Below, piece after piece: positions 49,892 through 56,360 of a stretch of DNA of 64,000 bases (positions within the stretch are counted from its first letter, which is position 1; each line of letters begins with the position of its first letter). The position numbers were made by a program, and so were the translations under genes. The DNA comes from Lentisphaera profundi (GTDB lineage Bacteria; Verrucomicrobiota; Lentisphaeria; Lentisphaerales; Lentisphaeraceae). A model generated the notes under the pieces. It saw only the letters and a list, made by a program, of their open reading frames with translations, was not told where the DNA came from and searched no databases. Location of the stretch: contig NZ_CP117812.1 in the NCBI RefSeq assembly GCF_028728065.1, positions 248,001 through 312,000 of the forward strand, given 5' to 3'.

Positions 49892-50389
49892 ATGAGAGTT
49901 TTAATTTTCACCCTGTTTTTATTGTTGATGTCCTGTTCGACGGATATTCATAATTATGAAGAAATGAAATTGTCTTCGCATATGCAAAATATGTTTCCCG
50001 ATGGAATTAGTAATGTAGATAACGAAAAAGCTGATTTGCGACTATTGCAAGATAAAGCTTTAGCCTTGTATTTCACCTCTAGCAATAACCCTCAATCACC
50101 TGAGTTTGAGCGTTTGCTCAGTGACATGGTAATTAAGTATGATTATCGTTTGGCTGTAGTTGTAGTCAATGTGGGTCCTTCTTATGAAGATTTTTTAGAA
50201 CAGGTTGAAAAGTACGGTTCTGATTTTTTTATCGTATCAGATAAAAGAGCTAAATCTTTAAGATCTGAATACAAAATCATGACTGCGCCAACATTAATAG
50301 TTTTTGGTAGGAATGGGAAATTAATTGATGAAGACGGTGTAGAATCCTTGGTCAATGATTATCCTCGAATTCCAGTCGCATGGGAGTAA
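49892..50389 (+). CDS. Thioredoxin-fold lipoprotein lacking the CXXC motif
   Basis: A 165-residue lipoprotein, lipobox LLMSC with Cys15. The mature part has ALALYFTSSNNPQSPEFERL, where tryparedoxin/thioredoxin-like proteins read 'Y-F-S-A-x-W-C-P-P-C'; here the Cys pair is replaced by Asn/Pro/Gln/Ser. The later segment MTAPTLIVFGRNGKLIDEDG carries the cis-Pro loop and final strand of the fold. It is therefore probably redox-inactive and structural or binding. The 3' end overlaps the frame of the next gene by a few bases before that gene's true start, in line with an operon with the cyclophilins. Confidence 0.65.
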   Translation: MRVLIFTLFLLLMSCSTDIHNYEEMKLSSHMQNMFPDGISNVDNEKADLRLLQDKALALYFTSSNNPQSPEFERLLSDMVIKYDYRLAVVVVNVGPSYEDFLEQVEKYGSDFFIVSDKRAKSLRSEYKIMTAPTLIVFGRNGKLIDEDGVESLVNDYPRIPVAWE

Positions 50390-50391
50390 GT

Positions 50392-51051
50392 ATGAAATAT
50401 ATTAAGATATTGATTTTCTTTAGTTTATTAGTTGCTTGTGGTAGTAATGATAAAAAAACTGAAGCAAAAGAAGAAGTGAGAAGTGATAAAGTTTCTAAGA
50501 AAGCGATCGAAACCTATGCCCATCCAGTAGTCAAGATTAGCACATCAAAAGGTGTCATGATTGCAGAACTTTATGAAGATAAGGCGCCGAATACGGTAGC
50601 AAATTTTGTGAGTTTAGTCGAGAGTGGCTACTATCAAGATATGCATTTTCATCGTGTGATCAAAGGCTTTATGGCTCAGGGAGGTTGTCCCTATTCCCGA
50701 ACTAATGATAAAAGCCGTAAGCGCCCTGGTACTGGTGGACCTGGCTATTCGTTTAACAACGAAACACATCCACAATTACGACATACTCAGAAAGGAATAC
50801 TTTCTATGGCAAATTCAGGCCCGCATACAAATGGCAGTCAATTTTTCATGCTTTTTAAGGAATCAAGTTTTTTGAATGGTAGCTATAATGTTTTTGGTCG
50901 AATTATAGAAGGCTTAGATGTTTTAGATAAGATAGAAGCCATAGGCGCTAAAAAAGATGGCTTGCCATTAAAAGAAAGAGTGACTTTCTCGATTACGCTC
51001 ATTCAGAAAAATGATCATCCCTATAAAGTAATTAAAAATTCAAATAACTGA
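50392..51051 (+). CDS. Cyclophilin-type peptidyl-prolyl isomerase, lipoprotein (1 of 3)
   Basis: A 219-residue lipoprotein with lipobox LLVAC; ATG 50392 is chosen because GGGAG stands five bases before it. A short charged linker is followed by a cyclophilin domain (about 45-215). This has FHRVIKGFMAQGGCP with the catalytic Arg, GILSMANSGPHTNGSQFF and FLNGSYNVFGRIIEGLDVL. It should assist proline isomerisation in the periplasm or at the envelope. A closely similar paralogue begins 128 bases downstream. Confidence 0.9.
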   Translation: MKYIKILIFFSLLVACGSNDKKTEAKEEVRSDKVSKKAIETYAHPVVKISTSKGVMIAELYEDKAPNTVANFVSLVESGYYQDMHFHRVIKGFMAQGGCPYSRTNDKSRKRPGTGGPGYSFNNETHPQLRHTQKGILSMANSGPHTNGSQFFMLFKESSFLNGSYNVFGRIIEGLDVLDKIEAIGAKKDGLPLKERVTFSITLIQKNDHPYKVIKNSNN

Positions 51052-51053
51052 TT

Positions 51054-51191
51054 ATGGCAAATCTGCGAGCTTCCGGAAAAGATTTTTTTAGCGTGTCAGA
51101 TGAAAAATTTAAATACACGATGATGAAGACTGCAGTATTAAATGATCATTTATATAACAGCGTCACAGGGGAGTCGATATGCGCATTATAA
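51054..51191 (+). CDS. Possible small protein between two cyclophilin genes (45 aa)
   Basis: An open frame of 45 codons, starting MANLRASGKDFFSVSDEKF and ending SVTGESICAL, fills the spacer between cyclophilins one and two. It overlaps the start of the second by 13 bases. The ATG lies three bases after the preceding stop, in a context (GATTATGGCAAAT) nearly identical to the start of the third cyclophilin (GATTATGGCCAAT). It may be a coupling leader, a true small protein, or the fused ends left by gene duplication. No family is recognised. Confidence 0.35.
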   Translation: MANLRASGKDFFSVSDEKFKYTMMKTAVLNDHLYNSVTGESICAL

Positions 51192-51874
51192 AATTTTTGA
51201 TTTTACTTAGTTTATTTGTGGCGTGCGAGAGAGATGAAAAATTAATTTTGCCAAAAGCGGAGTCACAAGCAAAAATTGAAGTACAAGGAGAAGCTACGCT
51301 CCCAACAAAAGTTGAATCAAGTGATAGCACTCAAAAAGCCATTGGAGCTTATGAGCATCCTCGGGTAAAAATCAGTACATCAAAGGGTGACATGGTTGCC
51401 GAGCTTTATGAAGATAAAGCACCTAATACGGTGGCAAACTTTGTGACTTTAGTGGAAAGTGGTTTTTATAAAGATATGAATTTTCATCGGGTTATTAAAG
51501 GCTTCATGGCTCAAGGAGGGTGTCCCCATTCTCGTTCAGGTACTGATAGTGGACAGCCAGGAACTGGTGGTCCAGGTTATTCTATTAATAACGAAATGCA
51601 CCCGCAGCTCCTCCATAATCAGAGAGGAATACTTTCTATGGCAAATTCTGGGCCCAATACAAATGGGAGCCAGTTTTTTATTCTCTTTAAAGAATCGAAA
51701 TTTTTGAATGGCGGCTACAGTGTTTATGGCCGTGTTATAGAAGGTCTAAATGTTTTAGATAAGATCGAAACTATAGGCGCTAGAAGAGATGGCTTGCCCT
51801 TACAAGAGCAAGTTACCTTCTCGATCACACTCATTCAGAAAAATGATCACCCCTACAAAGTAATTAAAAATTAA
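51179..51874 (+). CDS. Cyclophilin-type peptidyl-prolyl isomerase, lipoprotein (2 of 3)
   Basis: A 231-residue lipoprotein, lipobox LFVAC. The linker after Cys is longer than in copy one (about 25-50, rich in Glu, Lys and Thr). The cyclophilin domain has FHRVIKGFMAQGGCPHSRSG, GILSMANSGPNTNGSQFF and FLNGGYSVYGRVIEGLNVL, complete for catalysis. It ends in the same SITLIQKNDHPYKVIKN as copy one, showing a recent tandem duplication. Confidence 0.9.
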   Translation: MRIIKFLILLSLFVACERDEKLILPKAESQAKIEVQGEATLPTKVESSDSTQKAIGAYEHPRVKISTSKGDMVAELYEDKAPNTVANFVTLVESGFYKDMNFHRVIKGFMAQGGCPHSRSGTDSGQPGTGGPGYSINNEMHPQLLHNQRGILSMANSGPNTNGSQFFILFKESKFLNGGYSVYGRVIEGLNVLDKIETIGARRDGLPLQEQVTFSITLIQKNDHPYKVIKN

Positions 51875-51884
51875 GGAATAGATT

Positions 51885-52412
51885 ATGGCCAATCCTCGTG
51901 TAAAAATCATTACCGATAAGGGTACAATGATTGCCGAACTTTATGAAGATAAAGCTCCTAATACAGTCGCTAATATGATCACATTAGCTGAAGCAGGTTT
52001 TTACAAAGACTTGCGTTTTCATCGTATTTTAAAAGGCTTCATGGCTCAGGGCGGTTGCCCAAATACTAAAAAAGGTAAAGAATCAGGATCTCCTGGTACT
52101 GGTGGACCCGGTTATACTTTTGATAATGAGCACCATGCAGAAGCGAAGCACGATGCTCGTGGTATTCTTTCTATGGCAAATGCCGGACCTAATACGAATG
52201 GTAGTCAGTTCTTCGTTTGTTTTGGTGAGACTGCGTTTCTCGATGGTGGATATACTGTCTTCGGTAAAGTTGTAGAAGGCCTAGAAGTTATCGATGCACT
52301 CGAAGCAGTCGGTTCAGCTCAGGATCCAATCCCACCATCTGAAAAGGTTTTCTTCTCAATTGAAGTTGATTCAAAAGATGACAAAGATTACAAAGTGAAT
52401 AAAAACGCTTAA
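51885..52412 (+). CDS. Cyclophilin-type peptidyl-prolyl isomerase, cytoplasmic (3 of 3)
   Basis: A 175-residue enzyme without signal peptide, so cytoplasmic. It has FHRILKGFMAQGGCPNTKKG, GILSMANAGPNTNGSQFF and FLDGGYTVFGKVVEGLEVI. It is more acidic and more diverged than the two lipoprotein copies and is probably the ancestral form. The stop TAA shares one base with the ATG of the phosphoesterase gene that follows. Confidence 0.92.
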   Translation: MANPRVKIITDKGTMIAELYEDKAPNTVANMITLAEAGFYKDLRFHRILKGFMAQGGCPNTKKGKESGSPGTGGPGYTFDNEHHAEAKHDARGILSMANAGPNTNGSQFFVCFGETAFLDGGYTVFGKVVEGLEVIDALEAVGSAQDPIPPSEKVFFSIEVDSKDDKDYKVNKNA

Positions 52413-53273: not shown

Positions 53274-54404
53274 ATGAAAATTATTTTAAGTTTATGTGTA
53301 TTCTTATTGAGCGTTGTAAACGCTACAGAAATTGAATCACTTTTTAAAAGTAAAGAAACCACAAATATACCAGCATCCCAGTTTGCAGAAAAATATAATG
53401 ATTTCCAGTGGGAAGGAGAGAATACGCGTGTGGCGATCTCTAAGAATTCAAGCGTAGTGGGCTTTTCAGCGTATGAATCATTGGCCTACTTTACAGCGAC
53501 CGGTAAGTTAGTTCGTTTAGATAGTTGGCTGTACAATAAAGGCGATCAAGATACAATGAGTGTAGATGCTTTTGAAAAAATGTATCTAGAGGTGCTAAAA
53601 AAACTTAGTTCCTACTTCGGTGTGCAGCCCAAGAGATTTGCAAAAGATGGTGCTACGCGTGGGTTAGCCTATAGTTTCATGATTAGTCAGAAGCATGAAG
53701 TTCGTCTTTTAGTTGGTTATGATAAAAAGAAAAATGAAGCGAATTATCTTAGCTTAGTCATGCGTAACTATGCCACAAGTGATAGGGTTAATTCTGAGTC
53801 TAAAACAAAGGCGTTTCTGAAAAAAACTGAAACGGGCGATGTTTATATAACTAAAATCCCTATGATTGATCAAGGAGATAAAGGTTATTGTGTTCCCGCA
53901 ACTTTGACGAGAATCGGCCAACATTATGGAGTGGACGTAAGTATGCACGAACTAGCCATGGTCGCGAATTCGAGTAGTGATGGAGGAACGAGTCCGCGTA
54001 AAGCAATGGATGCAGTAAAAAAAGGTCGAATAGCACTAAGTATTCGCGATATAAAAGTGAGTTTTTATGATAAAAATCCTTATTTTTTAAGTGCGGGAAC
54101 GATTCGCTCAATGGCTAAAAAGATTTCTGAAAAAGATCGCAATATGGCAAAGTTTGAAAAAGAAATTATAAAGCGTATTAATCGTGGTCGTATGGTAGCT
54201 TGGTCAATGATGGTGGGGGCCTTTGAAGAAAAGGGGGCTCGTGAAGGTAGTTGGGGAGGGCATATGCGAATGATTATTGGATATAATTTAAAGACACATG
54301 AGATCTTGTATTCTGATTCTTGGGGTCGTGGGCATGAGTTGAAACGCTGGCCTTTAAAGTATGCTTACTTAGTAACAACGGGCCTTTACGACGTTGTTCC
54401 CTAA
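53274..54404 (+). CDS. Secreted C39-like papain-fold peptidase
   Basis: A 376-residue exported protein, signal peptide MKIILSLCVFLLSVVNA. The first half (about 20-185) is a beta-rich domain I do not recognise. The second half is a C39-type papain-like domain: IPMIDQGDKGYCVPATLTRI with catalytic Cys206, WGGHMRMIIGYN with the His near residue 325, and YSDSWGRGH with the Asp. C39 relatives cut leader peptides or peptidoglycan-associated peptides. Here there is no ABC transporter and the enzyme is exported. It starts one base after the phosphoesterase stop. Confidence 0.78.
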   Translation: MKIILSLCVFLLSVVNATEIESLFKSKETTNIPASQFAEKYNDFQWEGENTRVAISKNSSVVGFSAYESLAYFTATGKLVRLDSWLYNKGDQDTMSVDAFEKMYLEVLKKLSSYFGVQPKRFAKDGATRGLAYSFMISQKHEVRLLVGYDKKKNEANYLSLVMRNYATSDRVNSESKTKAFLKKTETGDVYITKIPMIDQGDKGYCVPATLTRIGQHYGVDVSMHELAMVANSSSDGGTSPRKAMDAVKKGRIALSIRDIKVSFYDKNPYFLSAGTIRSMAKKISEKDRNMAKFEKEIIKRINRGRMVAWSMMVGAFEEKGAREGSWGGHMRMIIGYNLKTHEILYSDSWGRGHELKRWPLKYAYLVTTGLYDVVP

Positions 54405-54518
54405 GGATTGCACTTCAAAGTTAGAGATAAGTCCATGTTTTTTTTCGCAGAAATATGGATTTCGAGATTTAGCGACTTAAATTCACATAACATTTTATAT
54501 ATAAGAGGAAGTTTGTCA

Positions 54519-56360
54519 ATGAAGAAATTATTACCCCTATTTAGTTTAGCACTCGTATTGCTGCAGTCCTGTACATCGCAATATAGTGAGTGGGAAAAGC
54601 CTTTGCCTGAGGGCGAGATTGTTCCCGGAGTTGAGTTGGTCCCAGATCCAATTGAAAGAGCCAATAGAATGAGTTTTTACGTCGATGATAAATTGATGAA
54701 TTATCTTGTTGAGCCAGCGTCAGATGGCTACCGCTATGTTGTACCTAAAGGTGCTCGTACTGGAATTGATAATTTCTTTGAAAATATTCTTTTCCCAAGA
54801 AACTTCCTCAATAATTTATTTCAGGCTGACTGGGATGGTTTAGGGAGAACGACGGATCGCTTTATTCTCAATACAACCGTTGGTATTCTTGGTTTTAGAG
54901 ATGTAGCGGCTGATCATTATAATATAAAAGCAGCTAAGCAAGATACAGGCCAAAGTTTTGCGAAGTGGGGTTGGGAAAATAATTTCTACCTCTATATCCC
55001 AATCTTAGGACCAAGTTCTGATCGTGATTTAGTCGGTAGAGTTGGTGATTATTTCATGAATCCTTTAATTTATAATGACAACACTAAGATCCTTAATTAT
55101 TTCTTGATCTTTAACAAAGCAACATTTTTCACTGATGCCTATCGTTCTTTAGTTGAAACTAACTATGATCCCTATGATTTACGTCGTTTGATTTATACTG
55201 TCACTCGTCGTTACAGTGCTGATCCCCTTAGTTTCCAAGGTGAAGATACTTCTGCAACTCAAACGCTCAGAGCCGTATACCTTCAGCCACGTGAAAAAGA
55301 TTTTGAAAACTGGAAAGTGGAAGGCGAGTTATTAGTTAAAAGCACGGGTGAAACAATTAAGTACAACTTTTGGTTACAAGATAAGCCTGCTCCATTAATG
55401 TATGTTATTCCTGGCTTAGGTTCTCATAGAAGTTCTGGTCAGCCAATGTTCTTAGCTGAGATGGCTTATTTAAAAGGTTATAATGTAGTGACTTTTTCTA
55501 ACTTAATGAATTTTGAGCCGATTTTAAAATCTAAAGATGCCATTTTTCCAGGCTATACACCAAATGATATTAAAAACATTAAAAAATTCATGGGTGCAAT
55601 TGATGCGGACTTAGAGAAAAATCATTCAGGTCAGTTTGGCGATAGATCAGTTATGGGTATTTCTTTAGGTGCTTATTACCTGCTCAATTTAGCGGCTTCT
55701 GAAACTGAAGAAGATGCTTTGAAGTTCAAAAAATATATTGCAATTGATGCGCCAGTGGATTTAATGTACGGTCTTAAGCAACTCGATAACTCTTATAATT
55801 CACCACTCAGTCTCGAGACTGAGGAAGAGAGAGAAAGATTTGTACTAGGGACATTAACGAAAGTTGCAGCAATTCTTGCTAATAGCGAAAAAATCACACA
55901 TAATCAAGCAATGCCTTTTACGGATCAAGAAGCCAAATACCTCATTGGTTTAAGTTTCCGTATGACACTACGTGATATGCTTTTTATTAGTGCTTACCAA
56001 GAAGAAATCATGGCTAATAATGAGTCCACGCCAAAAGAAGGTATATACAAGGCTTTAGGGCAGTACTCTTGGGAAGAGTACTACAAAATGTTTGTGATGC
56101 CTAAGCTTAAGGAAACCGGTTTGACTGAAGAGCAGATTGCTAAGGATGTTAGTTTGAGATCAGTAAGCAAGGCACTTAAAGAAAATGATAAAATAAGAGT
56201 TTTCACAAATCAAAATGATTTCTTAAATGAAGAAGGTAGTATTGCATGGATGAAATCTACTTTTGGAGATCGTCTTACGGTATTCCCTGATGGCGGCCAC
56301 TTAGGTAACCTTATCCAAGATAAAGTAAGGTCAGAAATCATTGAATCTCTAGAAGACTAA
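54519..56360 (+). CDS. Lipoprotein fusing an MlaA/VacJ domain to an alpha/beta hydrolase
   Basis: A 613-residue lipoprotein (lipobox LLQSC, Cys18). ATG 54519 has AGAGGAAG upstream; 37 codons further upstream lack such a site. Residues about 50-200 match MlaA/VacJ: YRYVVPKGARTGIDNFFENI, FPRNFLNNLFQADW, RFILNTTVGILGFRDVA and YIPILGPSSDRD. From about 270 a hydrolase domain follows with YVIPGLG, the nucleophile Ser382 in GISLG, Asp567 and His594 (DGGHLG). MlaA is an outer-membrane ring that removes misplaced phospholipids. The fused hydrolase may cleave lipids or acyl chains; this is inference. A terminator follows. Confidence 0.8.
   Translation: MKKLLPLFSLALVLLQSCTSQYSEWEKPLPEGEIVPGVELVPDPIERANRMSFYVDDKLMNYLVEPASDGYRYVVPKGARTGIDNFFENILFPRNFLNNLFQADWDGLGRTTDRFILNTTVGILGFRDVAADHYNIKAAKQDTGQSFAKWGWENNFYLYIPILGPSSDRDLVGRVGDYFMNPLIYNDNTKILNYFLIFNKATFFTDAYRSLVETNYDPYDLRRLIYTVTRRYSADPLSFQGEDTSATQTLRAVYLQPREKDFENWKVEGELLVKSTGETIKYNFWLQDKPAPLMYVIPGLGSHRSSGQPMFLAEMAYLKGYNVVTFSNLMNFEPILKSKDAIFPGYTPNDIKNIKKFMGAIDADLEKNHSGQFGDRSVMGISLGAYYLLNLAASETEEDALKFKKYIAIDAPVDLMYGLKQLDNSYNSPLSLETEEERERFVLGTLTKVAAILANSEKITHNQAMPFTDQEAKYLIGLSFRMTLRDMLFISAYQEEIMANNESTPKEGIYKALGQYSWEEYYKMFVMPKLKETGLTEEQIAKDVSLRSVSKALKENDKIRVFTNQNDFLNEEGSIAWMKSTFGDRLTVFPDGGHLGNLIQDKVRSEIIESLED

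Follow-up and report, generated by a model that had tools for sequence, protein, structure and literature searches.

The closest described system is MlaYZ, in which, according to two reports, MlaZ takes mislocalised phospholipid from the outer leaflet and hands it to MlaY, where it is degraded (PMC11131202, PMC12569750). The same two reports and a third describe MlaY as a periplasmic lipase and MlaZ as a homologue of MlaA (PMC11131202, PMC11977310, PMC12569750). Extraction followed by degradation is therefore a known mechanism for a pair of separate proteins. In the canonical Mla pathway of E. coli, MlaC binds MlaA at the foot of its channel, at Q205, M212 and F223 (PMC10719372). A long acidic tail of E. 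coli MlaA recruits MlaC. Proteins of the MlaA family form a donut-shaped channel in the outer membrane and are bound there to a trimeric porin. Whether transport linked to MlaA is retrograde, and what becomes of phospholipid pulled from the outer leaflet, are debated. The original MlaYZ paper is reportedly that of Guest et al. in PNAS in 2023, on PA3238/PA3239 of P. aeruginosa.

The window analysed here, a stretch of 64,000 nucleotides of the Lentisphaera profundi genome, encodes a lipoprotein in which an MlaA domain and an alpha/beta hydrolase form one chain. We consider it probable that this protein is a one-polypeptide MlaZ-MlaY, which extracts outer-leaflet phospholipid, hydrolyses it on the spot, and so replaces the return of phospholipid mediated by MlaC.

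Integrity of the gene and its product

The gene occupies 54519-56360 on the + strand as a single unbroken open reading frame of 613 codons, encoding a lipoprotein of 613 amino acids that contains the MlaA domain and the hydrolase. A longer alternative frame opens with TTG at 54408; a GAGGA site stands immediately 5' of the ATG at 54519, which opens straight into a lipoprotein signal ending in LLQS-Cys18. The features are as follows.

54503..54511, + strand: Shine-Dalgarno-like AAGAGGAAG, 7 nt 5' of the ATG, read directly from the sequence
54519..54572, + strand: lipoprotein signal peptide, residues 1-18, lipobox L15-Q16-S17-C18
54642..55214, + strand: MlaA domain, residues 42-232, predicted outer-membrane lipid-extracting channel (PF04333, match to PDB 8i8r, family-invariant residues)
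55215..55259, + strand: short linker, about residues 233-247, placed by alignment and N-termini, boundaries approximate
55260..56360, + strand: MlaY-type alpha/beta hydrolase domain, about residues 248-613, and stop codon
55662..55664, + strand: Ser382, predicted nucleophile in G-x-S-x-G, conserved in 58/58, aligned with MlaY Ser187
56217..56219, + strand: Asp567, predicted catalytic acid, conserved in 57/57, aligned with MlaY Asp388
56298..56300, + strand: His594, predicted catalytic base in GGHxGN, conserved in 57/57, aligned with MlaY His415

The residue at position +2 of the lipobox is Thr in the window protein and Ser in Lentisphaera marina, and because Asp is absent at this position the fusion is likely to be sorted to the outer membrane. 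L. marina encodes the same MlaA-hydrolase fusion with 84% identity, and the fusion is present in dozens of further genomes. Between the window species and L. marina, dS exceeds 1, with a dN of 0.07 in the MlaA part and of 0.14 in the hydrolase part; dN/dS is about 0.02 (dS saturated) and about 0.11 for the two halves, and both are therefore under purifying selection. The existence of a disrupted reading frame elsewhere in the same genome, in an mlaE-like gene, might suggest that the fusion is an assembly artefact or two genes joined by chance. However, that L. marina and a large number of other genomes carry the same fusion, with both halves under purifying selection, excludes a frameshift join and makes such an origin vanishingly improbable, and the preliminary description was correct in treating the product as one protein.

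Directly upstream, at 53274-54404 of the window, lies a gene for an exported Peptidase_C39-like protein (PF13529, E=1e-8), whose adjacency to the fusion is not kept in other genera. Further upstream, 50380-52412 holds three tandem genes for cyclophilin-type peptidyl-prolyl isomerases, two with lipoprotein-like signals and one without, which are probably paralogues targeted to different compartments. Beyond scattered cases we found no conservation of the gene neighbourhood of the fusion, and as such we propose no partner gene.

The MlaA domain

The N-terminal part, read in the preliminary description as MlaA over residues 50-200, matches PF04333 over residues 42-232 (E=3e-51, 174 bits against a cut-off of 25, profile positions 2-194 of 195), and its sequence also matches solved MlaA structures, among them 8i8r with E about 1e-10. 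It is the only MlaA copy in the genome. Residues invariant in MlaA, including E. coli N36, R37, P54, N106, G113, P151, R159, D160 and Y210, are kept in the window protein. Such MlaA-wide conservation in proteins linked to the hydrolase suggests that the channel is probably intact. An AlphaFold model built on an alignment of only two sequences, the window protein and that of L. marina, had a pLDDT of 31.

In the fused proteins the hydrolase comes after the helix that faces MlaC, by way of a short linker; in relatives with separate genes, the signal peptide and N-terminal segment of the hydrolase stand at the site of the linker instead. The simplest reading of these sequences is that the hydrolase may have taken over the place of MlaC at the channel exit. 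In the helix that faces MlaC, the residue aligned with E. coli Q219 is polar in all 30 of 30 MlaAs of the MlaC type but hydrophobic in 54 of 58 of the hydrolase type, a contrast that is a lead rather than a test since the position was chosen after a scan of all alignment columns. We also considered the fusion as a replacement of the acidic tail by which E. coli MlaA recruits MlaC, and dropped this as a sole explanation: the MlaC-type MlaAs of this phylum likewise have no long acidic tail of the E. coli kind, and so the hydrolase was not simply swapped in for it.

The hydrolase domain and its similarity to MlaY

Scans of the hydrolase half alone as a single sequence against Pfam and NCBIfam gave nothing significant. 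Among homologous domains, 30 of 57 match Abhydrolase_6 (best 2e-8), and a profile of the relatives searched against structures gave weak alpha/beta-hydrolase matches, the best being a venom phospholipase A1 (E=2e-4). The window protein has the order characteristic of the superfamily, with a G-x-S-x-G nucleophile elbow followed by Asp and then His. The preliminary assignment of residues 270-613 to a hydrolase with Ser382, Asp567 and His594 proved exact for all three residues, which are conserved in 58/58, 57/57 and 57/57 relatives, respectively.

A tblastn search of plasmid records with the hydrolase gave matches in P. aeruginosa, Skermanella and Fusobacterium, and in each of these an MlaA/VacJ gene follows directly downstream of the hydrolase gene. 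The P. aeruginosa hydrolase is 27% identical to the window domain over 337 residues (BLASTP, E=5e-36), with the triads aligned. Its gene neighbours are minC, a lauroyl acyltransferase gene, a pirin gene and the VacJ gene, which we take to be the setting of PA3238/PA3239. Although this level of identity to MlaY is low, about 27%, and alpha/beta hydrolases switch substrate readily, which is a counter-point to reading the domain as a phospholipase, homology and an aligned triad place the window hydrolase with MlaY at the level of sequence. The P. aeruginosa homologue itself can be identified here as MlaY from its sequence, in that its Ser187, Asp388 and His415 sit at the positions reported for the MlaY triad (PMC11977310). 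In Fusobacterium vincentii we noted an unannotated MlaY-MlaZ pair, hydrolase first (L108:3782-5822), and the pathway would therefore extend to a third phylum.

Split relatives and phylogeny

At the loci examined, the hydrolase is either fused to MlaA or encoded beside an MlaA gene. In eight genomes (L078-L085) a standalone MlaA gene is followed immediately by a separate hydrolase gene, and such adjacent pairs show that MlaA and the hydrolase belong together, as a fusion or as separate genes. Judged by eye, most of these split hydrolases have their own Sec-type signal peptide. Export is thus encoded in both arrangements, by a lipoprotein signal on the fusion and by Sec-type signals on the split hydrolases, and the latter signals would put the hydrolase in the periplasm or further out. 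In the trees of MlaA and of the hydrolase alike, the split pairs come together as a single supported clade and the two fused groups are held apart in the same manner, which fits inheritance of both parts as a unit. On the free MlaA tree the hydrolase-linked MlaAs stand apart from Pseudomonas MlaZ, with a joint clade not rejected (AU p=0.11).

Distribution across the phylum

We surveyed a sample of 289 genomes of the phylum using PF05494 for MlaC and, for the hydrolase, a profile built here from the alignment of relatives with a threshold of E<=1e-10. MlaA was found in 114 genomes, MlaC in 31 and the hydrolase in 83. All 83 hydrolase genomes have MlaA and 82 of them have no MlaC, while 30 of the 31 MlaC genomes have no hydrolase. 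Divided by content, the 114 MlaA genomes comprise 82 with the hydrolase only, 29 with MlaC only, one with both and two with neither, one of the last (G269) being cut by a contig end and lying beside a fused relative. Fisher's test of hydrolase against MlaC gives p of about 1e-23, a value that overstates independence in counting related genomes. The survey found that the fusion recurs across the class of the window species, Lentisphaeria, where 80 of 83 MlaA genomes have the hydrolase and the other three have MlaC beside a standalone MlaA.

The one genome with both (G173) has two MlaAs. This member of another class encodes a standalone MlaA with MlaC as well as a fusion resembling those of Lentisphaeraceae (L038, L023), possibly acquired by horizontal transfer, and it offers a natural test of two parallel pathways. 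A single genome of the 289 has a match to MlaC without a match to MlaA (G155:C21:54687-55079).

This distribution bears on whether the MlaA domain is a mere outer-membrane anchor or docking platform for a hydrolase that acts on inner-leaflet or environmental lipids, with nothing channelled through the pore. In favour of such a role, secreted esterases are numerous in marine bacteria. However, in none of the 289 genomes does the hydrolase occur without MlaA, the channel-forming core of MlaA is conserved in full, well beyond what a lipid anchor needs, and a plain lipobox would suffice to anchor the enzyme. We therefore regard a pure anchoring role as unlikely.

Transport and envelope genes in the window genome

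The preliminary description reported no mla transport genes nearby, which is true locally, although an mlaE-F-D-like cluster lies elsewhere in the genome. It proposed a genome-wide search for mlaBCDEF; the genome holds this cluster, with mlaE in broken frames, and a multi-MCE protein, but no match to the MlaC profile (PF05494), which does detect MlaC elsewhere in the class and in the phylum. The mlaE-like permease is in two broken frames at about 2255280-2256075 of the chromosome (G000:C1; L105:4780-5576, - strand), accompanied by mlaF- and mlaD-like genes and a small lipoprotein. Its N-terminal piece has 146 aa and covers MlaE profile positions 3-96, whereas the L. marina copy is whole, and the break is either a sequencing indel or a recent pseudogene. 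LptD is encoded in the window genome, and LPS is therefore probable in this species. No match to a PldA-type phospholipase (PLA1, PF02253) was found in the window protein or in the whole genome.

In one relative (G285, L057:10893-14398) an mlaD-mlaF-mlaE cluster that includes an ABC_trans_aux (PqiC-like) lipoprotein lies about 1 kb away from the fusion, an arrangement suggesting that an auxiliary lipoprotein of the Pqi type serves the MCE systems here in place of MlaC. In a relative from the same family (G233, L035:9400-10158) a gene for an mlaF-like ATPase stands tail to tail with the fusion gene.

The alpha/beta hydrolase fold also covers acyltransferases, and the hydrolase could conceivably remodel acyl chains, as an acyltransferase, a lysophospholipase or a thioesterase-like enzyme, before the lipid is returned by MCE transporters. 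The retention of mlaE-F-D-like and multi-MCE genes in the window genome would accord with such a role, as would the proximity of the fusion to mlaF or to mlaE-F-D in these two relatives, and ClsO, an outer-membrane lipoprotein, is a precedent for lipid remodelling at this site (PMC12846801). In contrast, the nearest characterised relative, MlaY, is reported as a degrading lipase (PMC11977310). MlaE was also undetected in nine hydrolase-bearing genomes, which is consistent with no return transporter being needed, though several of these genomes are incomplete. Remodelling before return thus appears very unlikely, and degradation by the fused hydrolase is the reading that we prefer.

Discussion

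We propose that the MlaA domain, seated in the outer membrane, draws mislocalised outer-leaflet phospholipid through its channel. The C-terminal domain, a predicted serine lipase of the MlaY type, would be tethered at the periplasmic exit of the channel, where MlaC docks in the canonical system, and would cleave the phospholipid as it leaves. Asymmetry would as such be restored through destruction rather than through return mediated by MlaC and MlaFEDB, and the fusion appears to stand in for MlaC, the usual lipid shuttle. From the domain make-up and integrity of the protein, the conservation of its triad, homology to MlaY, co-occurrence with MlaA, near-exclusion of MlaC and export signals of the split hydrolases, all observed here, we infer outer-membrane location, lipid extraction, phospholipase activity, the substrate and physical channelling. 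The earlier suggestion that the fusion degrades the phospholipid extracted by its MlaA part gains support from the homology to MlaY with its triad, the co-occurrence with MlaA and the near-absence of MlaC, with catalysis itself a prediction.

As far as the literature checked shows, what is new is the form fused in cis, the order with MlaA first, the spread across a class and the near-complete exclusion of MlaC. Our literature search found no report of an MlaA-hydrolase fusion, though the original MlaYZ paper might mention fusions. It also found no enzyme or membrane assay on a member of Lentisphaeria, a further counter-point to the proposed mechanism. An MlaA channel covalently tied to a lipase, with MlaC nearly excluded across a class, is comparative evidence that MlaA takes lipid away from the outer leaflet for disposal, and, as a construct of one chain, the fusion allows extraction and hydrolysis to be tested jointly. 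MlaYZ would be widened from a side pathway of Pseudomonas to the principal route that depends on MlaA in a class. More tentatively, and with slightly more doubt than conviction, we suggest that across most of Lentisphaeria the channel of MlaA has lost its connection to MlaC for good and is instead coupled in cis to a lipase of its own, extraction and destruction on the spot being the sole means of keeping outer-membrane asymmetry; should the MlaA tree be correct, pairing with an MlaY-type hydrolase would have arisen more than once with opposite gene order, as convergent lipid disposal.

MlaYZ and the fusion each combine an MlaA-family outer-membrane protein with an exported alpha/beta hydrolase bearing the same Ser/Asp/His triad, and for both the removal and degradation of outer-leaflet phospholipid is proposed; the genes of MlaYZ are adjacent, as in the split relatives. 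In contrast to the separate genes of Pseudomonas, Skermanella and Fusobacterium, in which the hydrolase comes first, the fusion is one polypeptide that begins with MlaA. Its hydrolase is 27% identical to MlaY and its MlaA domain falls outside the MlaZ group on the tree, with a joint clade not rejected. P. aeruginosa keeps the canonical Mla pathway besides MlaYZ, whereas the window genome has no MlaC. With canonical Mla (MlaA-MlaC-MlaBDEF) the fusion shares the invariant residues of MlaA, and its genome holds mlaE-F-D-like genes elsewhere, but a hydrolase takes the place of the acceptor and the gene is not beside mla transport genes. By analogy, with no MlaC present, the fusion is not a component of canonical Mla and would work like MlaYZ. 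PldA (OMPLA) reaches the end predicted for the fusion, hydrolysis of outer-leaflet phospholipid in the outer membrane, but it is a beta-barrel of unrelated fold, and in the fusion extraction would come before hydrolysis. The cardiolipin synthase ClsO (PMC12846801) is likewise an outer-membrane lipoprotein enzyme that handles mislocalised phospholipid, but it uses other chemistry, has no MlaA domain and is surface-exposed, while the fusion is presumed to be periplasmic.
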